NCBI GenBank assembly: GCA_031290675.1
Contig: JAITNC010000031.1
Span: forward strand, 1 to 10,801
Reading direction: 5' to 3'
Length of the DNA stretch: 10,801 nucleotides
Source: Campylobacteraceae bacterium
Lineage (GTDB): Bacteria > Campylobacterota > Campylobacteria > Campylobacterales > Campylobacteraceae
Shown here: one piece after another, positions 541-10,740 of the stretch
Layout of the letters: the number at the start of each line of letters is the position of its first letter
How positions within the stretch are numbered: the stretch's first letter is position 1
Notes under the pieces: model-generated
Database searches by the model: none
What the model saw: the letters and a program-made list of their open reading frames with translations, nothing else
What the model was told of the DNA's origin: nothing
Made by a program: the position numbers and the translations under genes

Positions 541-3500
541 ATGGAATTGTACAAAAGTTACAAAGACAACTGTGGTTTTGGTTTGCTGGCAAATATCGGA
601 AATATACCTTCTCACGATATAGTCAAAGACTCTATATCGGCGCTTGAGCGAATGGTACATAGAGGTGCTATCGCCAGCGACGGCAAGAGCGGGGACGGAA
701 GCGGACTTTTGTTTTCACTTCCCGTTGAGTTTATGGTCAAAGAGGCGGCGAAGCTCGGAGCTCACTTGCCGAAACAGTTCGCTGTGGCGCAGGTGTTTTT
801 CACGAAAGATGAGCAGAAAAATGTGTTTGAGGAGATTTGCGAGCAAAATGATTTGAAAGTTTTGCTTTACAGAGATGTGCCGATAAACACGAACGCTCTT
901 GGCGAACTGGCTCTCAAAACACTGCCGAAAATCACTCAAGTTTTCGTCATACCAAACTCTCTTATCGCAACAAAACGCTTTGAGTCGCTTTTGTATATGA
1001 CAAGACGCAACATTGAAAACGCCCTGAAAAACGACAGCGAGTTTTATATTCCGTCATTTTCAAACAGTGTCATCTCGTATAAAGGTCTGGTTATGCCGAC
1101 CTATATCAGAGAGTTTTACAAAGACTTGCAAGATACGGATTTTAAGTCGGTATTTGCACTGTTTCATCAACGATTTTCTACAAATACACTGCCAAAATGG
1201 AAGCTTGCACAGCCGTTTCGCACACTATCGCACAACGGCGAGATAAACTCTATCACTGCAAACAGATTTAACGTAAAAGCCAAAAGCGAGTTTTTACGAA
1301 GTGCCGTTTTTTCGGACAAAGAGCTGAACTCCCTGCTGCCTATCACGAGCGACGATGTCAGCGATAGCGCAAGCCTTGACAATATGTTTGAGTTTTTGAT
1401 ATCTAACGGGTATGATTTTTTCAAAGCCGCACGTGTTTTGATACCCGCTCCGTGGCAAAACTCCCCGCACATAGACTCAAAGCTGAGAGCGTTCTACGAG
1501 TATGCGAGCAATAGTTTTGAGCCTTGGGACGGGCCTGCCGCCATATCGCTCACAAACGGACGATACGTAGCCTGTATCTTGGATAGAAACGGTCTAAGAC
1601 CGGCGAAATACATCATCACAAAAGATAAGAGGATATTGATAGCCAGCGAATACGGCGTTTTGGACATAGACGATGACAACATCATAGAGCGCGGGCGTCT
1701 TCAAAGCGGCGAAATGCTCGGGGTTGATTTGAAATTTGGCAAAGTTATGAAAAACGCTGAGATAAACGACTATCTGAAAAATTCGCACCCATACGCCGAG
1801 TGGCTCAATAAAAATATGTTTTATCTCCAAGAGTATCTGGACATCTTGTTTGCCAACACAAGCGACTACAAACTTGACAACTTAGCCTATCTGCAACGCT
1901 ACAACAACATCACTCAAGAGATAAAAGAGATGGTTATAGAGCCTATGATGAAGGACGGCAAAGAGGCTACGGGTTCTATGGGCGACGATACGCCATTGGC
2001 AGCGTTTAGCGAGAAACAACGCTCATTTACGGACTTTTTCAAACAAAAATTTGCACAAGTTACAAACCCGCCGATAGACCCTATACGAGAGATGGTCGTC
2101 ATGAGTTTGAACGCCGACTTTGGGCAGATAAACAACATCTTGGACGAAACCCCAAGCCACGCTTTCCGTATCAAATCTATCTCGCCGATATTGACACAGG
2201 AGAGAGTGGAAGTACTGCGCTCGTTTGGCGACCCCGACAAGCCGCTCTACAAAAAAGAGTACAAATGCCGCACGTTCTCAACGCTTTATGAGGACAACTT
2301 GCACGGCTCTTTGGAGGATTTGGTTTATGATGTCGTGGAGGCAGTCAGATACGAGGGCGTGCATATAGTATTTTTTGACGACCGTATGATAGACAAAACG
2401 CACAAAGCCATACCGATGGCGATGGTCGTCGGGCGTGTCAGCCAAGCCCTTTTGGACAGCGGCGTCAGACACAAAGCCTCTATAGTCGCTATAAGTGCTG
2501 AAGTGTTTGACTCGCACTCTATGTCCGCGCTGATAGCGTTTGGAGCGAGTGCGGTTTATCCGTACCTGCTGTATGCGACCGTTTTTGAGGAGATTACAAG
2601 GCAAAATCTTGATGGTTATGAGGCGAAAGAAACATTTAAAAATGTCTTGCACGCACTCAACCAAGGCTTGCTCAAAACCATCTCCAAGATGGGCATCTCA
2701 ACCATAGCTTCGTACAGAAACTCGGGGCTTTTTGACATCATAGGACTTTCACGTGAGATAGTAAATGACTGTTTTAGGAACTCTGCGAGCGTGCTAAACG
2801 GGCTTAGCTACGAAGATATAGAAAACCGTATGCAAAAAAGCCACGACAAAGCGTATGAGCTTGCCACAAGAAAGATGATGTTTCCTCTTGATATCGGCGG
2901 ATTTTACAAGTACCTTGACGGCGGCGAATACCACGACTACAACCCAAGAGTCATACACGCTATCCACAAAATAGCCCAGAGCGGCAAAAAAAGCGATTAT
3001 GAGCAGCTCAAAGTGTTGATAGAGGGCAGAAAACTGAAGATGATAAGGGACTTTTTTGATATCAAATCCGACAAAAAACCTATAGACATCAAAAACGTGG
3101 AATCAAAAGAGGAGATTTTCAAACGCTTCAACGGAGCGGCTATGAGTCTTGGCTCTATCTCACCCGAAGCCCACGAAGCCATCGCTTTGGCTATGTATAA
3201 GATAGGCGGTATGTCAAACTCCGGCGAGGGCGGCGAAGCACCCCAGAGGCTAAAAAGCGAGAAAAACTCCAAAATCAAACAAATAGCTTCAGGACGCTTT
3301 GGCGTAACGCCCGAGTATCTCAGAAGTGCGAAAGAGATACAGATAAAAGTAGCGCAGGGAGCGAAACCCGGCGAGGGCGGACAGCTGCCCGGACACAAAG
3401 TCACACCTCTTATAGCGAGCCTTCGTTACACAACGCCCGGAGTAACGCTCATCTCGCCGCCGCCGCACCACGATATATATTCCATTGAGGATTTGGCGCA

Positions 3501-4962
3501 GTTGATATTTGACCTCAAACAGGTCAATCCGGACGCTATCATAACAGTCAAACTTGTTTCAACGACGGGTGTCGGCACTATCGCCGCAGGCGTAGCGAAA
3601 TCATACGCCGATAAAATCATCATCTCAGGCAATGACGGCGGAACGGGCGCAGCACCTCTCACGTCTATCAAATTTGCGGGCGACCCTTGGGAGATAGGAC
3701 TCAGCGAAGCTCAAAACGCCCTCAAGCACAACAACTTGCGGGAGCTTGTACATTTGCAGACAGACGGCGGCTTGAAGGTCGGTTCAGACATCATCAAAGC
3801 GGCTCTTTTGGGAGCTGAAAGTTACGCTTTCGGAACGCTTCTTTTAAGTATAGTCGGCTGTAAAATGCTAAGAGTTTGCCACCTGAACAGATGTTCGGTC
3901 GGCGTAGCGACGCAAGACGCTGAACTGCGAGAGCATTTTGTCGGCACGGCGGATAAGATAGTCAATTATTTGACTCTTTTGGCTGAGGACGTGCGGGAGA
4001 TATTGGCGTCTTTGGGGTACACATCGTTAGAAGAGATAATCGGACGCAATGATTTGTTGTCCGTGAAAGACGATGAGGTCGCCAAAAAGTTTGATTTTAG
4101 CCCTATTTTGACGCACATAGAGGGCGTAAATACGTGCCAAAAAACAAACACGCCTTACGATAAAAACGAGTTTGAAAAAGAGATATTGAAAGAGGCTTAC
4201 AAAGTCATAGAAAATCCAAACGAACACGTCGTACTCAACAAAGTCATAGCCAACACAAACAGAAGTTTTGGCGCGAGAACGAGCGGCGAGATAGCGAAAT
4301 TTTACGGCGACGCAGGGCTTAAAGAGAACAGCATAGTCTACAAGCTTGACGGCATAGCAGGTCAATCTTTGGGGGCGTTTTTGATAAACGGCGTGAGTAT
4401 TCATCTAAGCGGCGTGGCGAACGACTACGTCGGCAAAGGTATGAACGGCGGCAAAATCATCATAACGCCGAAAGTACAGGGCGAAAACTTCTCATGTGCC
4501 GGAAACACATGCCTTTACGGCGCTACGGGCGGCAAACTTTTTGTAGCCGGAAATGTCGGCGAGAGATTTTGCGTCAGGAACTCCGGAGCCATAGCGATAG
4601 TAGAAGGCACGGGCGACCACGCTTGTGAGTATATGACGGGTGGCGAAGTGCTGATACTCGGCAAAACAGGCGTGAACTTTGGCGCAGGTATGACGGGCGG
4701 CGTGGCTTTCGTGTACGATAAAGACCACGATTTTATAGACAAACTAAACCAAGAACTTGTCAAAGCAGTGCGCATAGACACAGACGAGATGGACGAAGCA
4801 AGACACGCTCTGAAAAAGCTTTTGCGCTACCACATCAACGAAACTGAGAGCGTGAAAGCCAAAGATATTATGGACACTTTCAGACACGCTATAAGGGACT
4901 TTTGGATGATATATCCGAAAGATATGACAAGATTGCCGTTAAGCCCGGGAGAAGGAAACTAA
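541..4962 (+). CDS. gltB: Glutamate synthase [NADPH], large subunit
   Basis: This is the alpha subunit of NADPH-dependent glutamate synthase, which hydrolyses glutamine and transfers the ammonia through an internal tunnel to 2-oxoglutarate, giving two glutamates. It is cytoplasmic and partners with GltD. The 1473-residue protein has the usual family length and domain order. An N-terminal class II amidotransferase domain (about 11-400) has catalytic Cys11 in DNCGFGL and the glutamine-site motifs HQRFSTNTLP (209-218) and SHNGEIN (230-236). A central domain follows (about 430-720). The FMN-binding synthase domain (about 810-1180) has MSLGSIS at 868-874, GEGGE at 895-899 and GNDGGTGAAP from 1030. 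Cys1107, Cys1113 and Cys1118 show the CX5CX4C spacing of the 3Fe-4S cluster. The C-terminal GXGXG beta-helix domain spans about 1240-1430. Cys11 implies that a 10-residue propeptide is removed. The start at 541 follows a weak AGG ribosome site at 532-534. The reading frame is intact. Confidence 0.97.
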   Translation: MELYKSYKDNCGFGLLANIGNIPSHDIVKDSISALERMVHRGAIASDGKSGDGSGLLFSLPVEFMVKEAAKLGAHLPKQFAVAQVFFTKDEQKNVFEEICEQNDLKVLLYRDVPINTNALGELALKTLPKITQVFVIPNSLIATKRFESLLYMTRRNIENALKNDSEFYIPSFSNSVISYKGLVMPTYIREFYKDLQDTDFKSVFALFHQRFSTNTLPKWKLAQPFRTLSHNGEINSITANRFNVKAKSEFLRSAVFSDKELNSLLPITSDDVSDSASLDNMFEFLISNGYDFFKAARVLIPAPWQNSPHIDSKLRAFYEYASNSFEPWDGPAAISLTNGRYVACILDRNGLRPAKYIITKDKRILIASEYGVLDIDDDNIIERGRLQSGEMLGVDLKFGKVMKNAEINDYLKNSHPYAEWLNKNMFYLQEYLDILFANTSDYKLDNLAYLQRYNNITQEIKEMVIEPMMKDGKEATGSMGDDTPLAAFSEKQRSFTDFFKQKFAQVTNPPIDPIREMVVMSLNADFGQINNILDETPSHAFRIKSISPILTQERVEVLRSFGDPDKPLYKKEYKCRTFSTLYEDNLHGSLEDLVYDVVEAVRYEGVHIVFFDDRMIDKTHKAIPMAMVVGRVSQALLDSGVRHKASIVAISAEVFDSHSMSALIAFGASAVYPYLLYATVFEEITRQNLDGYEAKETFKNVLHALNQGLLKTISKMGISTIASYRNSGLFDIIGLSREIVNDCFRNSASVLNGLSYEDIENRMQKSHDKAYELATRKMMFPLDIGGFYKYLDGGEYHDYNPRVIHAIHKIAQSGKKSDYEQLKVLIEGRKLKMIRDFFDIKSDKKPIDIKNVESKEEIFKRFNGAAMSLGSISPEAHEAIALAMYKIGGMSNSGEGGEAPQRLKSEKNSKIKQIASGRFGVTPEYLRSAKEIQIKVAQGAKPGEGGQLPGHKVTPLIASLRYTTPGVTLISPPPHHDIYSIEDLAQLIFDLKQVNPDAIITVKLVSTTGVGTIAAGVAKSYADKIIISGNDGGTGAAPLTSIKFAGDPWEIGLSEAQNALKHNNLRELVHLQTDGGLKVGSDIIKAALLGAESYAFGTLLLSIVGCKMLRVCHLNRCSVGVATQDAELREHFVGTADKIVNYLTLLAEDVREILASLGYTSLEEIIGRNDLLSVKDDEVAKKFDFSPILTHIEGVNTCQKTNTPYDKNEFEKEILKEAYKVIENPNEHVVLNKVIANTNRSFGARTSGEIAKFYGDAGLKENSIVYKLDGIAGQSLGAFLINGVSIHLSGVANDYVGKGMNGGKIIITPKVQGENFSCAGNTCLYGATGGKLFVAGNVGERFCVRNSGAIAIVEGTGDHACEYMTGGEVLILGKTGVNFGAGMTGGVAFVYDKDHDFIDKLNQELVKAVRIDTDEMDEARHALKKLLRYHINETESVKAKDIMDTFRHAIRDFWMIYPKDMTRLPLSPGEGN

Positions 4963-4963
4963 T

Positions 4964-6349
4964 ATGCAAAACTTTTTAACCATAGAGAGAATAGAACCGC
5001 AAAAACGCTCACAATTTGAGAGAGTGAAAGACTACAGAGAGATTTACGAGTTGTTGTCCAAAGACGATATAAGTGAGCAGGCGAGCCGATGTATCCAGTG
5101 CGGCGACCCGTTTTGTCATAACAAATGCCCGCTTCACAACCTCATACCTTTTTGGCTCAAAGCGGTTGGTGCAAAAGCCGATATAGACCTTGCGTTTGCA
5201 CTCTCAAACGAAACAAACCCATTTCCTGAGATAACAGGTCGCGTCTGTCCTCAGGAGCGGCTTTGCGAGGGGGATTGTTCGCTAAATGACGGACACGGAG
5301 CGATAACGATAGGCTCCATAGAAGTAGCCATCAGCGAAAACGGCTTTAGAAAAGGGCTCAAACCGCTATTTGCAGAGAAAAAAGCAGGCAAATCCGTAGC
5401 CATAGTAGGTTCCGGCCCAGCTTCCATATCTGCCGCTACTTATCTTTTGAGAGCAGGCGTTGATGTAGTGATGTACGAGCGCCAATCACGAGCGGGCGGG
5501 CTTTTGACGTATGGTATTCCGGGCTTCAAGATAGAAAAAGATGTCGTGGCAAGACGCATTGATTGGCTTGTGAAGGCGGGAATGAAGCTTTTTGTAGATA
5601 CAAAAGTCGGAGAGCACATACAGTTTTCGGAGCTTGTGAACTCGCATAATGCCGTATTTTTGGGCATAGGAGCTGAGCAGTCAAACAGAGCAAATATAGT
5701 AAACGAAAACGCTCGCGGGACTATCTCGGCGATAGATTTTCTACGTGATATACAGAAGAAAAACTTTAAAGAAAAACACGATGGCGCTGTAGACGCGGCG
5801 GGCAAAAACGTCGTAGTTATCGGCGGCGGCGATACGGCTATGGACTGCCTAAGAAGTGCTGTGCGAGAGGGTGCGAAGAGTGTTACGTGTCTGTACAGAC
5901 GTGATAAATTTAATATGCCCGGTTCAAAAAAAGAGTTCAAAAACGCTCTTGATGAGGGGGTGATTTTCGTCTATAACGTCACGCCAAAAGATATAATTCT
6001 CAACAGTGACGGCAATGTCATAGGCATAAATATGCAAAAAACCATCATGAGTGAACGCTCAGCCGACGGCAGACAAAGCGTTGAGGTAGTCAAAGGCAGC
6101 GACTTCAAAGTTGATGCCGATATCGTTATATTTGCACTTGGATTTAGCCCGAGCGAGCCTGCATTTTTGGCTGAAAACGGCATAGAGATGAACTCCAGAG
6201 GCGCTATAGCAGTGGACAACAAATACCGCACGAGCAAATCAGGAGTGTATGCGGGCGGGGATTGTATGAGGGGAGCGGCTCTTGTAGTGAACGCGGCGGC
6301 GGACGGAAAAGCGGCGGCGGCACAAATTTTGCGAGATTTATCATTGTAG
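4964..6349 (+). CDS. gltD: Glutamate synthase [NADPH], small subunit
   Basis: This is the beta subunit of glutamate synthase. It oxidises NADPH on FAD and passes electrons through 4Fe-4S clusters to the FMN of GltB. The 461-residue protein has an N-terminal ferredoxin-like part with Cys43, Cys46, Cys51 and Cys55 and a second set Cys95, Cys101 and Cys105, the pattern that holds the 4Fe-4S clusters in GltD. An FAD-binding Rossmann motif is at 149-154 (GSGPAS), a NADPH-binding motif at 287-292 (GGGDTA), and a C-terminal FAD motif reads GVYAGGDCMRG. The sixth position of the first motif is Ser where Gly is more usual. The start lies one base after the gltB stop, and its ribosome site GAAGGA (4951-4956) sits inside the end of gltB, so the two are almost certainly cotranscribed and translationally coupled. 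No clear terminator follows it. Confidence 0.97.
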   Translation: MQNFLTIERIEPQKRSQFERVKDYREIYELLSKDDISEQASRCIQCGDPFCHNKCPLHNLIPFWLKAVGAKADIDLAFALSNETNPFPEITGRVCPQERLCEGDCSLNDGHGAITIGSIEVAISENGFRKGLKPLFAEKKAGKSVAIVGSGPASISAATYLLRAGVDVVMYERQSRAGGLLTYGIPGFKIEKDVVARRIDWLVKAGMKLFVDTKVGEHIQFSELVNSHNAVFLGIGAEQSNRANIVNENARGTISAIDFLRDIQKKNFKEKHDGAVDAAGKNVVVIGGGDTAMDCLRSAVREGAKSVTCLYRRDKFNMPGSKKEFKNALDEGVIFVYNVTPKDIILNSDGNVIGINMQKTIMSERSADGRQSVEVVKGSDFKVDADIVIFALGFSPSEPAFLAENGIEMNSRGAIAVDNKYRTSKSGVYAGGDCMRGAALVVNAAADGKAAAAQILRDLSL

Positions 6350-6362
6350 GGCATATATTTAA

Positions 6363-6392
6363 TTACTTTTTAAGCATAACATCTATTATAAT
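6363..6392 (+). promoter_or_regulatory. Putative promoter of the small acidic gene
   Basis: A perfect TATAAT -10 box lies at 6387-6392. TTACTT at 6363-6368, 18 bases upstream, is a possible weak -35 box. The predicted start is near 6399, about 50 bases before the ATG at 6452. This suggests that the downstream small gene has its own transcript and need not depend on gltBD. Confidence 0.55.
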
Positions 6393-6451
6393 TTAACTTT
6401 CAAATTCATTTTTTGGGTTTGGAAGTTAAATATACAGAAATAAGAGGATTT

Positions 6452-6682
6452 ATGACTAAAGATGAAGCAGTTTTGGAGTTGCGCTTTTGCAATGTGAGTG
6501 AGGAGGATATAGCCTTTATCGTAGATAAGTGCAAGCACAAAAATATCTCTCCGCAGTTTTTAGATGATGAGCTTGAAAAGCTTGATTATGAGCGTTTTTT
6601 TCGTTTTGAGTATGACGAGGATTTCGGCGCGCACGACGCTTATGCAGCCTCGCCGGCAAATAAAAAGAGGAACTCGGATTAG
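6452..6682 (+). CDS. Small acidic protein of unknown function
   Basis: This 76-residue protein is not one I recognise. It is rich in Asp and Glu, especially in the middle and C-terminal half, contains Phe/Tyr clusters (ERFFRFEYDEDF), and has two Cys residues in its N-terminal third. It has no signal peptide, membrane segment or recognisable domain. The ATG at 6452 is preferred because AAGAGGA lies just upstream (6442-6448) and a TATAAT box stands at 6387-6392. A TTG at 6413 in the same frame would add 13 residues but has no ribosome site. It stands between gltD and a non-coding stretch, on the same strand, with its own promoter. It could be a lineage-restricted regulatory or adaptor protein, but that is a guess. 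Confidence 0.65.
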   Translation: MTKDEAVLELRFCNVSEEDIAFIVDKCKHKNISPQFLDDELEKLDYERFFRFEYDEDFGAHDAYAASPANKKRNSD

Positions 6683-6730
6683 TGGGGAGCGTTGCCTTTG
6701 CAATGTTTAACCCGTTTTTCTCATGCAAAT

Positions 6731-6752
6731 TTTCTTGCAACTCAGTTGCATT
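6731..6752 (+). repeat. 22-bp repeat, copy 1, with hairpin
   Basis: This 22-base segment recurs at 8419-8440 with one difference (21 of 22 identical). It contains a perfect 6-bp stem, TGCAAC and GTTGCA, around a TCA loop (6736-6750). In the second copy the stem has one mismatch. It is probably a fragment of the dispersed repeat family that fills the right part of the window. Confidence 0.6.
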
Positions 6753-6860
6753 TTGTTACCAATCCCCCTTCTGTGGAAAGGGTGGTGGTTTTGGCTTGGG
6801 AGTTATCAAGACGAACTAAAAAATTCTAAAAAAAGCAATATAGATAGTTATAACAAAAAA

Positions 6861-6887
6861 GGTGGTATTCGGTATGTATATACCACT
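6861..6887. repeat. Inverted repeat in the upstream region of the RRM gene
   Basis: GTGGTAT (6862-6868) and ATACCAC (6880-6886) are exact inverted copies with an 11-base gap, extended by one G-T pair. It lies about 160 bases before the RRM gene in AT-rich sequence. It could be an operator or an RNA hairpin; nothing decides between them. Confidence 0.35.
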
Positions 6888-7001
6888 CAAAATGAAAAAT
6901 TTTTCCAAAAAAAGCAAAAAATATTAAAAAAAAGCAAAATTTTTACATATTAACACGATAAATAAAACAAGTTTTAATAATTAAGTGGGTATTGTATGAG
7001 A

Positions 7002-7028
7002 TTGACTTTTATAGTCAAGACATTTTTT
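7002..7028 (+). promoter_or_regulatory. Leader hairpin with T-tract before the RRM gene
   Basis: TTGACT (7002-7007) and AGTCAA (7013-7018) form a perfect 6-bp stem with a 5-base loop. GACA and a run of six T (7023-7028) follow, and then the ribosome site AGAAGGA (7029-7035) of the RRM gene. If transcription begins upstream, this small stem plus T-tract could act as an attenuator or a site for autoregulation. It could instead be a DNA operator, since TTGACT also resembles a -35 box. The stem is short. Confidence 0.35.
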
Positions 7029-7044
7029 AGAAGGATAGTTAAGC

Positions 7045-7317
7045 GTGAATATTTACGTTGGAAATTTGTCATATAAAATGACAGAGGGTGAGCTTGAGGC
7101 AGTATTCGGACAATTTGGCACAGTTTTAAGTGCAAAAATAGTAATGGATAGAGATACAAACCGTTCAAAAGGTTTTGCGTTTGTAGAGATGGAAGATGAA
7201 GCTGCTGCTCAAGAAGCCATTGAACAACTCAATAACAAAGATATCGGTGGAAGAAGTCTTCGTGTAAATGAGGCTAGACCTCGCGAAGAGAAACCAAAAA
7301 GAGCACCTCGTTTTTAA
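7045..7317 (+). CDS. Single-RRM RNA-binding protein
   Basis: This 90-residue protein is almost entirely one RNA recognition motif, the fold that binds single-stranded RNA through aromatic residues on its beta sheet. RNP2 is IYVGNL at 3-8 and RNP1 is KGFAFVEM at 42-49, with the expected aromatic positions Tyr4, Phe44 and Phe46. A basic, flexible tail (PREEKPKRAPRF) follows. Short proteins of this build are common in cyanobacteria and in several proteobacterial lineages, including Campylobacterota; they are often linked to cold or stress responses, though the targets here are unknown. The start is GTG at 7045 with AGAAGGA at 7029-7035, nine bases away. It is a single-gene unit closed by a strong terminator. 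The assignment to the fold is secure and the role is inferred. Confidence 0.93.
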   Translation: MNIYVGNLSYKMTEGELEAVFGQFGTVLSAKIVMDRDTNRSKGFAFVEMEDEAAAQEAIEQLNNKDIGGRSLRVNEARPREEKPKRAPRF

Positions 7318-7342
7318 TTAAATAAAAACCAAGATGAACTTT

Positions 7343-7377
7343 AGCCCTTTGCGCTTTTTGCGTGAAGGGCTTTTTTT
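7343..7377 (+). terminator. Intrinsic terminator of the RRM gene
   Basis: AGCCCTT (7343-7349) pairs with AAGGGCT (7365-7371). The inner bases continue the stem with two G-T pairs and three Watson-Crick pairs around a five-T loop, for about 12 bp in all. Six further T follow (7372-7377). It ends the RRM transcript and separates it from the downstream phospholipase gene. Confidence 0.9.
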
Positions 7378-7479
7378 ATGGGCAAATTTATCCACAGCAC
7401 AAGCCAACTTCACACTTACATACACTTTATCAAAACACCATAAGGGCGAAAGCAAAAGCGAATTTTTACAAAATACTGC

Positions 7480-7501
7480 TAAAATATATAGATTTTATAA
7501 A
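7480..7501 (+). promoter_or_regulatory. Candidate -10 region for the patatin-like gene
   Basis: TAAAAT (7480-7485) and TATAAA (7496-7501) are both possible -10 boxes in a run of AT-rich sequence past the terminator. The first would give a leader of about 25 bases before the TTG start. No good -35 box is spaced correctly, so the choice is open. Confidence 0.35.
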
Positions 7502-7517
7502 ATACAAGGAGTGGGCG

Positions 7518-8366
7518 TTGGATAAGAGCGTTCTTGTTTTGGAAGGCGGCGGCATGAGAGGGCTTTACGGCGCAGGCGTGCTGGACTTTTTGGCTGCACA
7601 AAAACTCACATTTTCAGACGTAGTCGGCGTTTCTATGGGCGCTTGCAACGGTGCGAACTACCTCTCAAATCAGGCAGAACGCAACTACCGCATACCCGAC
7701 ACTTTCATCAACGACGCACGCTATCTGTCATACAAAAGGTGGCTTATGGGCGGCGAACTTTTTGATTTGAGGTTTATCTTTGAAACCCTCTCGCACGAGC
7801 TTGACCCGTATGATTTTGATACTTTCAGCAAAAGCAGCTCCCATCTTCACATCGTAGCGACCGAGTGCGTGAGCGGAGAAAGTGTCTGTTTTGACAAATT
7901 TGCCTCACACGAGGAGCTTGGCAAACTCTTAAGAGCCTCCTGCTCTCTGCCTTTTGCGGCAAAAAGCGTCGTCTACGAGGACAAAATACTGCTTGACGGC
8001 GGCATCAGCGACCCGATACCGATATCATACGCCAAAACTCTTGGAGCTAAAAAAATAGTCGTAGTTTTGACGCAGCCATCGGAGTACAAAAAATCAGCCT
8101 TCAAATTTGGCTTTTTGCTCAAACTTTTTTACCCAAAATACAAAGGCTTGCGAGAAGCTGTACTATCTCGCCACGATAGATACAACCAGAGTATGCTTGA
8201 AGTGGACAGGCTTGAAAAAAGCGGTGAGATATTTATCATTCGCCCCTCCTCTACCCTACCCGCCTCCCGTATAGAAAGAGACAGAACGAGGTTAAAATCT
8301 ACTTATGAGAGGGGATTTGCGGACGCCTGGGAGAGTTATGAGGGGCTGAAAGAGTATCTTGGTTGA
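7518..8366 (+). CDS. Patatin-like phospholipase / esterase
   Basis: This 282-residue protein belongs to the bacterial patatin-like family, hydrolases that cleave acyl esters of lipids with a Ser-Asp dyad. The oxyanion loop GGGMRG is at 10-15, the nucleophile Ser39 lies in GVSMG (37-41), and the catalytic Asp160 lies in DGG (160-162), in the order the family requires. No signal peptide or membrane segment is visible, so it is probably cytoplasmic. The start is taken as TTG at 7518 because AAGGAG (7506-7511) stands six bases upstream and the protein then begins directly with the first beta strand. The longer frame from a GTG at 7362 would begin inside the terminator stem of the previous gene. 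Its overall layout resembles the YjjU-like branch. The physiological substrate is not evident. No terminator is seen after it. Confidence 0.9.
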   Translation: MDKSVLVLEGGGMRGLYGAGVLDFLAAQKLTFSDVVGVSMGACNGANYLSNQAERNYRIPDTFINDARYLSYKRWLMGGELFDLRFIFETLSHELDPYDFDTFSKSSSHLHIVATECVSGESVCFDKFASHEELGKLLRASCSLPFAAKSVVYEDKILLDGGISDPIPISYAKTLGAKKIVVVLTQPSEYKKSAFKFGFLLKLFYPKYKGLREAVLSRHDRYNQSMLEVDRLEKSGEIFIIRPSSTLPASRIERDRTRLKSTYERGFADAWESYEGLKEYLG

Positions 8367-8451: not shown

Positions 8452-8720
8452 CGTCATTTCGGCGAACCGAAGCACACCACTACCGTCATTGCGAGTTTGT
8501 AATCAGGCGTGGCAATCCACTCCCTCTTTTGTCATGCTGAGGCGAAGCCCCTCCCCTATTGTCATGCGTGAACGAAGCGAAGCATCTGTGTTTTGTTTGT
8601 GTCCCCTTCCCGTCATTGCGGCGAACCGAAGCCCACTTTACCGTCATTGCGAGTTTGTACTCAAACGTGGCAATCCACTCTTGTGTCATTGTGAGGAGCA
8701 AAGCGACGTAACAATCTCAG
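8452..8720 (+). repeat. Middle palindromic repeat array (seven units, partly tandem-duplicated)
   Basis: Seven short units lie here: 8452-8473, 8484-8519, 8530-8548, 8558-8590, 8611-8632, 8642-8677 and 8683-8720. The first two recur as the fifth and sixth with a shift of about 158-159 bases, which points to a local tandem duplication. Units 8484-8519 and 8642-8677 start with CGTCATTGCGAGTTTGTA and end with CGTGGCAATCCA. Unit 8683-8720 is the GTCATTGTGAGG type. Units 8530-8548 and 8558-8590 are the GTCATGC type. The spacers differ in length, so this is not a CRISPR array. A long open frame across it (8363-8812) is only the translation of the repeats. It occupies most of the gap between the phospholipase gene and the insertion sequence. 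Confidence 0.85.
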
Positions 8721-8764
8721 CTCTCTTGGGTTTTTCCCTCTTTTGGTTCACTCTTGCTCTTGTC

Positions 8765-8787
8765 ACTTTCTTTTCCGCAAAGAAAGT
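8765..8787. repeat. 9-bp palindrome at the 3' edge of the insertion sequence
   Basis: ACTTTCTTT (8765-8773) and AAAGAAAGT (8779-8787) are exact inverted copies around a five-base centre TCCGC. It lies outside the inferred end of the IS110 element and its outer edge abuts that end. I read it as a hairpin of the host's dispersed repeat that served as the insertion target. Confidence 0.7.
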
Positions 8788-8828
8788 CAACTATCAACCA
8801 ACTCACCTCTAAAAAACAGATATCTACA

Positions 8829-8843
8829 GTTTCATAATGAAAC
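8829..8843. repeat. Short palindrome after the transposase gene
   Basis: GTTTC (8829-8833) and GAAAC (8839-8843) with the intervening ATAAT form a symmetric 15-base palindrome just past the transposase stop, inside the inferred element. It could shape the 3' end of the transcript or the right end of the element. An AGATATCT palindrome lies beside it (8818-8825). Confidence 0.4.
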
Positions 8844-8847
8844 ACCT

Positions 8848-10017
8848 TTATGCTAAATTTGGGTCAAATTTGGTTTTGTTCTTTAGTAATACAAATAGTG
8901 TCCTTAACAGTTTGTTTGCTACAGCGATAACAGCCTGTTTGTATTTTTTACCTTCATCTATCTTTTTCTTGAAGTAAGCACGAAACTTATCACAATACCT
9001 TATAACACCAATAGCCATAAGATACAGAAGTCGTCTTAAACTTGAATTGCCTCTTTTGGATATTCTGCCATTAGAGTTAAGCGATATGCCGCTCTGTTTT
9101 AAAGCAGGGTCTAAACCTGCAAAAGCACTTAACTGCTTATGTGTGTCAAATCTGTTTATATCAGCTATCTCAATAACAAAGCTTTTTGAAGTAATTTTTC
9201 CTATACCGGGAATTGACTCTATATTCTGTATGTCGTTATTGATATCCTGATTGCCTTGCAAGAACTCTTCAAGCTCTTTGTCCAACATCTCTATCTCATC
9301 TTGAACAATCAAGAGTCTTCTTATTTGAGAAGTCAATACCTTTTCAAGAGGGATATTTATTATAGCGATAGAGTTATTGGCAAGGGTTAATATCTCTTGT
9401 GCGCTTATAGTAATCTTTCTACCCAATATACGCGCCAAGACTTTCTGCTTTAACTTCCTTACTGCTCTTGCGCTTGGAACTTCAAGAAGTAAGTTCAGTA
9501 TACCTTGTGTAAAGATATTTGTGCTCTTTTGCAATTCAGGAAACAGCTGTGTCAGAGATACTTTGATATTTGTCTTTAACTTGTTAATCTCACAACATAA
9601 ACTCTCCCGTTCTCTTACCAATACTCTTATGTCGTTAAAGGTATTGATATCGGCAAGACGCAGAGAGTTATAAGACTTTGAAGCAAAGAGGGCTATAAGG
9701 TAAGCATCTTTCTTGTCATTCTTTGTTTTTCTAAGTGTTGAGGAGGCTATAAACTTACTGATTAACAGTGGGTTTGTTACTGTACACTTGAAACCATTCT
9801 CAATCAAGAAACAGAGCAGTGGCATATGATATATACCTGTAGCTTCCATTGAGATTAGAAGTTTATCTTTATTTAAAGATGATAAATGCTTTATCAGAGT
9901 ATCAAATCCCTCTTTGTCCATTGAAAGTTTAATAGAGAGTTTGACTTTCTCACTTTCAAGCAAAGCTATATCAAAACTGTCTTTGCTTATGTCTATTCCC
10001 ATAAAATACTCATACAT
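8848..10017 (-). CDS. IS110-family DEDD transposase (RNA-guided recombinase)
   Basis: This 389-residue protein is a full-length IS110-group transposase. These enzymes pair a RuvC-like DEDD domain with a C-terminal serine-bearing domain and recombine the element with its target under the direction of a bridge RNA. The DEDD residues are visible as Asp9 (GIDISK), Glu58 (EATGIY), Asp101 and Asp104 (KNDKKDA). A coiled linker runs from about 135 to 260. The C-terminal domain begins with a helix-hairpin-helix (SIPGIGKITS, 268-277), followed by AFAGLDP (298-304), QSG with Ser309 as probable nucleophile, and RISKRGNSSLRRLLY (318-332). The ATG at 10017 has AAAGGGG on the minus strand at 10031-10025, seven bases upstream. 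There is no frameshift, stop or lost catalytic residue. The non-coding region lies upstream of the gene, which fits the IS110 rather than the IS1111 group. Confidence 0.95.
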   Translation of the reverse strand: MYEYFMGIDISKDSFDIALLESEKVKLSIKLSMDKEGFDTLIKHLSSLNKDKLLISMEATGIYHMPLLCFLIENGFKCTVTNPLLISKFIASSTLRKTKNDKKDAYLIALFASKSYNSLRLADINTFNDIRVLVRERESLCCEINKLKTNIKVSLTQLFPELQKSTNIFTQGILNLLLEVPSARAVRKLKQKVLARILGRKITISAQEILTLANNSIAIINIPLEKVLTSQIRRLLIVQDEIEMLDKELEEFLQGNQDINNDIQNIESIPGIGKITSKSFVIEIADINRFDTHKQLSAFAGLDPALKQSGISLNSNGRISKRGNSSLRRLLYLMAIGVIRYCDKFRAYFKKKIDEGKKYKQAVIAVANKLLRTLFVLLKNKTKFDPNLA

Positions 10018-10046
10018 TGTCTTACCCCTTTATGATATAATTAACA

Positions 10047-10199
10047 TACAAACAGATAAGCATTCTTGCTTTTATTCATTCTCCTATTTGACGGAAGCTC
10101 TAAGCTTAATCAACTGATTGGAATTGAAAGCAAGTGATAGACTTTCTTAAAGGTTCAAAGACCTAGTAACACAACAATCATCTTGCTTATCTGTTTGTA
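10047..10199 (-). ncRNA. Predicted bridge RNA (seekRNA) of the IS110 element
   Basis: On the minus strand this 153-base segment starts and ends with perfect inverted arms of 16 bases (10199-10184 and 10062-10047, TACAAACAGATAAGCA and its complement). A second stem pairs CTTGCTTT with AAAGCAAG (plus 10065-10072 and 10127-10134), extended by two pairs. Smaller stems are AGGT/ACCT (10151-10154 with 10161-10164), AAGC/GCTT near 10094-10106 and AATC/GATT near 10108-10119. A TATAAT box on the minus strand at 10210-10205 places the start at the edge of the outer stem. No open frame of note is present. Position, length and fold match the IS110-group bridge RNA, which aligns element and target. The bases after the outer stem run into the ribosome site of the transposase, so the RNA may be part of its leader. 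Confidence 0.65.
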
Positions 10200-10204
10200 C
10201 CGGA

Positions 10205-10233
10205 ATTATAGTATTATTTCCAGTAGGAGTAAA
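10205..10233 (-). promoter_or_regulatory. Promoter of the predicted bridge RNA and transposase
   Basis: On the minus strand TTTACT (10233-10228) and a perfect TATAAT (10210-10205) are separated by 17 bases, the ideal sigma70 spacing. The predicted start falls at about 10196-10199, where the outer stem of the RNA begins. The -35 box lies within a few bases of the inferred element end, so a circular intermediate would alter the sequence just upstream of it. Confidence 0.65.
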
Positions 10234-10236
10234 ACA

Positions 10237-10422
10237 AAGAAACTCCCCCTAGTGTAACTGTCCTTCGGATACCCTGCGCATTATTGCGTTACGTCGGGAG
10301 CTGCGGAACTCACTCAGTCGTTCAGACAGTCCTCGCTCTTTACCGACTTCACGCTTCAATGCTTGGCAGTTACAACGGGGAAAGAAACAGCCAACGAGTT
10401 TGCTGTATTTGCTTCGCAAATA
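10237..10422. repeat. Dispersed-repeat sequence flanking the insertion sequence
   Basis: This stretch has a higher G+C content than the element beside it and no convincing gene. On the minus strand it contains GTAAAGAGCGAGGACTGTCT, GAGTTCCGCAGCTCCCGACG and AGGGGGAGTTTCTTTG. I have the impression that such strings recur in other bacterial genomes as non-coding repeats, but I cannot check this here. A frame at 10249-10452 on the minus strand reads through it and is rejected as a gene. A perfect hairpin closes it: TATTTGC (10406-10412) and GCAAATA (10416-10422) around TTC. The module probably continues on the other side of the insertion sequence at 8720-8788. Confidence 0.5.
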
Positions 10423-10423
10423 A

Positions 10424-10603
10424 CACAGATACTCACACCTTCGGCTCAGCATGACACAAAAGAGAGGTAATCACCCAATGAGCCCCCATTCTCGTCATTG
10501 CGAGCTTGCTTGCAAGCGTGGCAATCCAGTATTGACACGGTGGAATTGCACCACACACGCCCATTGTGTCATTGTGAGGAGCGAAGCGACGTGACAATCT
10601 CAG
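10424..10603 (+). repeat. Right palindromic repeat array (three units)
   Basis: A unit of the GTCATGC type lies in reverse orientation at 10424-10456. A canonical unit at 10493-10528 has a perfect inner hairpin, GCTTGC and GCAAGC around TT, within outer arms ATTGC and GCAAT. A unit of the GTCATTGTGAGG type lies at 10568-10603. The last one and its left flank are exactly repeated, inverted, at 137-186. Confidence 0.8.
10551..10600 (+). repeat. Right copy of perfect 50-bp inverted repeat
   Basis: This segment is the exact reverse complement of 137-186. It contains most of the unit at 10568-10603 and 17 bases of flank. The two copies face each other across about 10.4 kb. Confidence 0.9.
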
Positions 10604-10637
10604 CACTACTTTTTTACGCAAAATAACTTAAAAAATA

Positions 10638-10666
10638 TTACTTATCTCACTACTTATTGATATAAT
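10638..10666 (+). promoter_or_regulatory. Candidate outward promoter near the right edge
   Basis: TTACTT (10638-10643) and a perfect TATAAT (10661-10666) are 17 bases apart on the plus strand, in AT-rich sequence. The predicted start is near 10673, so the leader would run through the palindromic unit at 10693-10727 towards a gene outside the window. Confidence 0.5.
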
Positions 10667-10692
10667 ATTTACTTTTTGTGCTATTATCATAT

Positions 10693-10727
10693 GGATTGCC
10701 ACGTCGCTACGCTCCTCGCAATGACGG
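10693..10727 (-). repeat. Lone canonical palindromic unit
   Basis: This 35-base unit reads GGATTGCCACG...CTCGCAATGACGG on the plus strand, so it is in reverse orientation to the right array. It is the least degraded copy in the window. It lies downstream of the candidate promoter at 10638-10666. Confidence 0.8.
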
Positions 10728-10740
10728 AGGAGGCATTGTA

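Follow-up and report, generated by a model that had tools for sequence, protein, structure and literature searches.

A probable bridge RNA enclosed by a closing helix in an IS110-group element of a Campylobacteraceae bacterium

The element, its transposase and its insertion site

The window, by which we mean the whole stretch of 10,801 nucleotides analysed here, carries an IS110-group element on its minus strand (8787–10229; 1,443 bp including one copy of a CT core). The upstream genes (541–8366), judged by eye, include two long frames resembling glutamate synthase subunits, a short frame resembling an RNA-binding protein and another resembling patatin. The element encodes a transposase/recombinase of 389 aa (8848–10017, minus strand; DEDD_Tnp_IS110 and Transposase_20), in which the DEDD RuvC-like domain (PF01548) and the serine Tnp domain (PF02371) both score above the curated cut-off. 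Alignment by eye places its residues D9, E58, D101, D104 and S309 in motifs matching D11, E60, D102, D105 and S241 of IS621; IS621 and ISCro4 are the two solved sequences that match the transposase at E ≤ 0.001.

Matches to the transposase at 1e-80 occur in 7 of 398 genomes of the order, the window's own included, and those in the other genomes are 47–62% identical to it. The best-matched named records come from Campylobacteraceae, Sulfurospirillum and Campylobacterales, with more distant ones in other groups. Close relatives of the transposase were not found in viral contigs, in plasmids (E up to 1e-60) or in phages (E up to 1e-40).

The element sits inside a dispersed host repeat (window 8669–8787 and 10228–10420). 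Its boundaries were set by comparing the flanks with three empty copies of this repeat (L002, L003 and L004), which read AAAGAAAGT-AAAACAAAG on the plus strand across the insertion point. The flanks align to L002 over 128 bp at 84% and 196 bp at 93%, abutting at the core, and they also align to L003 and L004; it should be noted that these empty sites are paralogous copies in the same genome rather than the same locus in a sister genome, and that small differences between the flanks are expected and present. The alignments indicate a scarless insertion at a short core, as is typical of the IS110 group: the left core dinucleotide CT lies at 10228–10229 and the right one at 8785–8786, with the left end starting at 10229 and the right end at 8787. 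The first-pass annotation had put the element's end at 10236; the end lies at the core, and the seven bases from 10230 to 10236 are host DNA. Read in the direction of the transposase, the target is TTTGTTTTA-CT-TTCTTTC. On the minus strand of the window, the left target TTTGTTTTA occupies 10230–10238, as judged from the empty copies, and the right target TTCTTTG occupies 8778–8784.

The left end begins CT-CCTACTGG and the right end finishes with ATAGTTGA before CT. Long terminal inverted repeats are absent, as in the IS110 group (by eye on the printed ends), and the left end (10018–10229; 212 bp) is longer than the right end (8787–8847; 61 bp). With the RNA described below in the left end and so short a right end, the element does not fit the IS1111 group, which has its bridge RNA in a long right end and also has long subterminal inverted repeats.

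The right target is an arm of an imperfect inverted repeat of the host, ACTTTCTTTTCCGAAAGAAAGT, 22 nt long. This repeat has 20 exact copies in the window's assembly, and a search allowing one mismatch found none in 13 further genomes of the genus (55–99% complete). More short dispersed repeats, of the type CATTGCGAG...GGCAATCCA, are present in the window at 8460–8720 and 10490–10740 and recur at other loci of the same genome.

Fold and covariation of the predicted upstream RNA

Within the left end we predict an RNA of ~153 nt on the minus strand (10047–10199), its 5' end placed from a −10 box and its 3' end taken as the end of a 16-bp arm. The two perfect arms of 16 bp (5' arm, 10184–10199; 3' arm, 10047–10062) form a closing helix that shows compensatory changes among relatives. 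The longest perfect inverted repeat in 10018–10236 is 16, and the longest in 2000 mononucleotide shuffles was 12, seen in two of them; the perfect stem reported by the first-pass annotation is real and its coordinates are right. The fold of the minus strand that the annotation proposed as a check gave −63.3 kcal/mol for 10018–10236, with shuffles at −40.9 ± 4.5 (z = −5.0) and 0 of 200 as stable. The plus strand of the same segment, which holds the same stem, has a z of −3.9.

A covariance model (R2) of nine relatives, built with the window left out, scored the window segment at 123.6 bits (E = 5.6e-25). None of the window's letters entered this model, but the model is not fully independent of the window's fold: the structure in which pairs were counted was drawn by hand on the alignment of the nine relatives, aided by a fold of an alignment with the window in it. 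The same model gave 22.2 bits on the window's plus strand and 91.1 bits on a relative from the Delongbacteria (L012). In the alignment of the nine relatives, 95.9% of cells pair, and compensatory changes are seen at 18 of 44 pairs (6.6 in shuffles, 0–3 in slid versions; L012 and the truncated remnant L057 stand outside this count). The closing helix is 98.2% paired, with compensatory changes at 8 of its 19 pairs, and each of the five inner helices has at least one pair with a compensatory change. One of the five covariation measures, further pair types, gave no excess (22 vs 23.6 in shuffles). The arms and the inner stems thus do covary among relatives, and the further internal stems read from the window's letters at the outset are borne out. 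We rejected the suggestion that the terminal stem links the RNA to the transposase leader, since its covariation is that of a helix closing the RNA itself.

The closing helix is ~20 positions long in most of the nine relatives, without counting a G.G mismatch that lies within it in all nine (columns 11 and 196 of alignment A2), where the window has a C-G pair. The helix is not universal at 20 bp, however: in the Delongbacteria relative only its inner pairs are evident. The window sequence has no match in Rfam at gathering thresholds. A truncated remnant in genome G022 (L057:513–705) retains the left part of the bridge RNA, and a transposase frame was not seen just downstream of it.

Guides, junction promoter and targets

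The folded RNA holds two internal loops, as in bridge RNAs, the first of which matches the target and the second the donor, core included. In the target-binding loop (all features on the minus strand), the left guide UUGUGUUACU (10165–10174) is the same as the target top strand TTGTTTTACT at 9 of 10 positions, with one G.A mismatch, and the right guide AAGAAAGU (10141–10148) is a perfect complement of the target ACTTTCTT (8/8); a hairpin, AGGU-CUUUGA-ACCU (10151–10164), folds within the loop. In the donor-binding loop, the left guide AGUUGAUU (10108–10115) matches the right end AGTTGACT at 7 of 8 positions, with a U.G wobble at the other, which lies in the core, and the right guide UAGGAG (10081–10086) is a perfect complement of CTCCTA in the left end (6/6); here the fold places the hairpin AAGCUUAGAGCUU (10095–10107), which is helix 6 of the covariation count.

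Taken together, and with the core counted in both guides, the target guides agree with the empty target at 17 of their 18 positions. This score was reached by none of 1990 CT sites of the same genome (both strands of the window outside 8700–10300 and of the repeat loci L005–L008), nor did any of 3000 dinucleotide shuffles of the RNA attain it; the top score in each set was 16. The donor guides match the circle junction at 13 of 14 positions, and 1 of the 1990 control sites does as well. The order of the target guides and their strand arrangement are as reported for IS621. A search of the 1.44-Mb assembly with a 15-nt guide at up to one mismatch returned six sites, all of them TTGTTTTACTTTCTT and all adjoining a copy of the inverted repeat, and none with the reversed control; the left guide fits the repeat copies flanked by TTTTA (six sites) better than copies such as L005–L008. 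We conclude that it was very probably this folded RNA that directed the element to its landing site.

A promoter, TTTACT-17-TATAAT, had been proposed to start the RNA. The site is present (10233–10205, minus strand), with its −10 box TATAAT at 10205–10210 and its −35-like TTTACT at 10228–10233, and it is the only such site that our promoter search returned in 8700–10400; shuffles, however, average 4.2 such sites, so that this 10/12 match is by itself not above chance and was not used as evidence. The first four of the six bases of its −35 box (10230–10233) are host DNA, and the box is completed only in the circle, where the joined right and left ends give TTGACT 17 bases before TATAAT. A promoter sequence is thus reconstituted across the joined ends, as expected for a bridge RNA. 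We do count this junction box as evidence, as TTGACT recurs at the junction in 9 of the 9 elements examined; the −10 box at the same distance, judged by eye, is TATAAT in two of them, one base off in six and two bases off in L012. The start predicted from the −10 box, ~10199, would fall roughly on the first base of the closing helix.

The element in the window targets the host inverted repeat, unlike most of its relatives, in which the target guides correspond to a Shine-Dalgarno sequence plus ATG; the donor loop is similar among them. An ATG reading outward lies 5–10 nt from the core in all 21 relatives scored, and by eye in one more (L062), against a background of 860 of the 8256 CT dinucleotides of these loci (10.4%) and 16 of 79 CTCCTT sites. 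This count leaves aside L009, whose contig begins at the core, L013, whose left end is not on the contig, L020, with the same left-end sequence as L010, and L030 and L031, which are the same copies as L058 and L059; the truncated remnant L057 and four copies in genome G235 that are cut by contig ends (L048, L051, L060 and L061) contribute left targets only. The frames that follow the outward ATG run from 14 codons (L057) to more than 400, several being cut by contig ends, and not every one of them need be a gene. CT-CCTT, which is AAGGAG on the strand of the gene, is found in 13 of the 17 relatives with a right end (the exceptions are L013, L023, L024 and L063). The core is not wholly fixed: the L058 copy has TT at the left core position, where others have CT.

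The right guides and their targets change together, in three classes: AAGGAG with CTCCTT, AUAYGAG with CTYGTAT, and AAGAAAG with CTTTCTT. The right guide of the CTCCTT class includes AAGGAG, and the targets CTCGTAT and CTTGTAT of L023 and L024 are met by the guides AUAUGAG and AUACGAG with one wobble each. When guides and targets are exchanged between elements, the window's right guide pairs at 7 of 7 positions with its own target and at 4–5 with the others, and on the window's target the AAAGGAG right guides of some relatives could pair at 6 of 7 positions if wobbles are included. The left guide starts with CAU, the reverse complement of AUG, in the 10 relatives tabulated. Its fit to their own targets is loose (2–9 of 10 in a fixed register); that of the window matches the targets of other elements at 3–7 of 10 positions, versus 9 on its own.

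In the CTCCTACT relatives (L048, L051, L010, L019 and others), the left end read outward is AGTAGGAG, shortly before the ATG of the neighbouring gene. Insertion thereby leaves the neighbour a Shine-Dalgarno-like sequence, and the element may resupply a ribosome-binding site to a gene whose own site is interrupted; we infer that the neighbour's expression could be retained in this way. A copy in genome G090 (L021:1050–3015) lies inside a 42-nt spacer between the repeats of a CRISPR-like array, of which seven repeat copies were seen, and this spacer holds CAT-N6-CT-CCTT. The outward ATG is unlikely to be a gene start there, so the sequence motif seems to suffice.

Alternative readings and known systems

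We are highly confident that minus-strand 10199–10047 belongs to a complete insertion sequence of the IS110 group and encodes its bridge RNA, as the first-pass annotation had proposed from the family of the transposase: the guides are complementary to both target and donor, a covariance model free of the window's sequence recognizes the segment, and its helices carry compensatory changes. What can be read from the sequence are the ends of the element, the core, the four guide matches, the conserved covarying fold and the junction promoter sequence; transcription, recombinase binding and catalysis are assigned by analogy with IS621. On this model, excision would bring the right end up to the left end across the CT core and so create TTGACT-17-TATAAT, a promoter for a transcript beginning close to the first base of the closing helix. 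This transcript would fold so that the closing helix holds the target-binding and donor-binding loops, and the recombinase would bind the folded RNA. At the host inverted repeat, the left target guide would then pair with the bottom strand and the right one with the top strand; the donor guides would pair with the junction of the element itself, and strand exchange at CT would be carried out by the DEDD/serine recombinase.

The element could be one that no longer moves, its bridge RNA having been functional once and being a remnant now; the assembly, which is 81% complete, holds a single full copy, and the −35 box of the integrated copy is incomplete. We consider this unlikely, since the transposase is open over its whole length with its catalytic motifs, empty members of the target family that the guides fit still exist, and the promoter sequence formed at the junction is complete. 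Less probable still is a role other than that of a guide RNA, with the inverted repeat and leader fold either controlling transposase translation in cis or serving as DNA to which the transposase binds: the segment does lie directly upstream of the transposase, a terminator-like site was not found in 8700–10400 and conserved inverted repeats can be protein-binding DNA too, but the Shine-Dalgarno-like AAAGGGG falls outside the stem, and this explanation accounts neither for two internal loops that match target and circle junction in the strand arrangement of IS621 nor for right target guides that change with the target.

Beyond the identity of the bridge RNA, we lean, with some reserve, towards a clade, mainly of Campylobacterales, in which a closing helix of ~20 bp replaces the 5' stem-loop, making the RNA self-contained and separate from the transposase message, and in which the target loop, unlike the nearly constant donor loop, has been switched in nature between gene start signals and an inverted repeat specific to one genome. 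Within the literature searched, the closing helix appears to be new, and so does this natural switching of targets around a donor loop that hardly varies. A target made of Shine-Dalgarno sequence and start codon was dropped from the claim of novelty, as it is already in print for IS900 (PMC8141618). The clade provides related bridge RNAs that vary naturally: vacant copies of the target lie in the same genome, and right target guides have shifted in step with their targets around a nearly fixed donor loop.

The described target motif of IS900, from Mycobacterium avium subsp. paratuberculosis, is CATGNNNNNNTCTCCTT, a start codon and Shine-Dalgarno sequence on the opposite strand (PMC8141618). 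Most relatives of the window's element share this type of target; the element itself differs in targeting a host inverted repeat. IS900 and a bridge RNA were not found together in the literature searched, whose coverage is incomplete. For some IS110-type elements that land in ribosome-binding sites, our reading offers an explanation by RNA guidance. For another IS110-type element, ISEc21, the account of its seekRNA reports that the upstream non-coding region is required for the element to form circles and to move, and that bases of the target match the RNA (PMC11187229); the likeness noted here is in these described features.

The closest comparison is with IS621, which, as described (PMC11208160, PMC11208158), shares with our element an RNA in the left end, a junction promoter (reported in PMC11208160) and a CT core. 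In both, the target-binding loop precedes the donor-binding loop, and in each loop the 5' guide corresponds to the bottom strand and the 3' guide to the top strand. The RNAs differ in length (177 nt in IS621 vs ~153 nt here), and the target and donor sequences differ as well. The main difference lies at the 5' end: a separate 5' stem-loop is described for the IS621 bridge RNA (PMC11208160, PMC11208158), whereas in the fold of the window and in the nine relatives the two ends of the RNA pair with each other in the closing helix. This stem-loop comes from the published consensus of 103 orthologues and is not required of every bridge RNA; diverse bridge RNA structures are reported in the same paper (PMC11208160). 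The RNA described here thus provides a scaffold closed at its ends for comparison with that of IS621.
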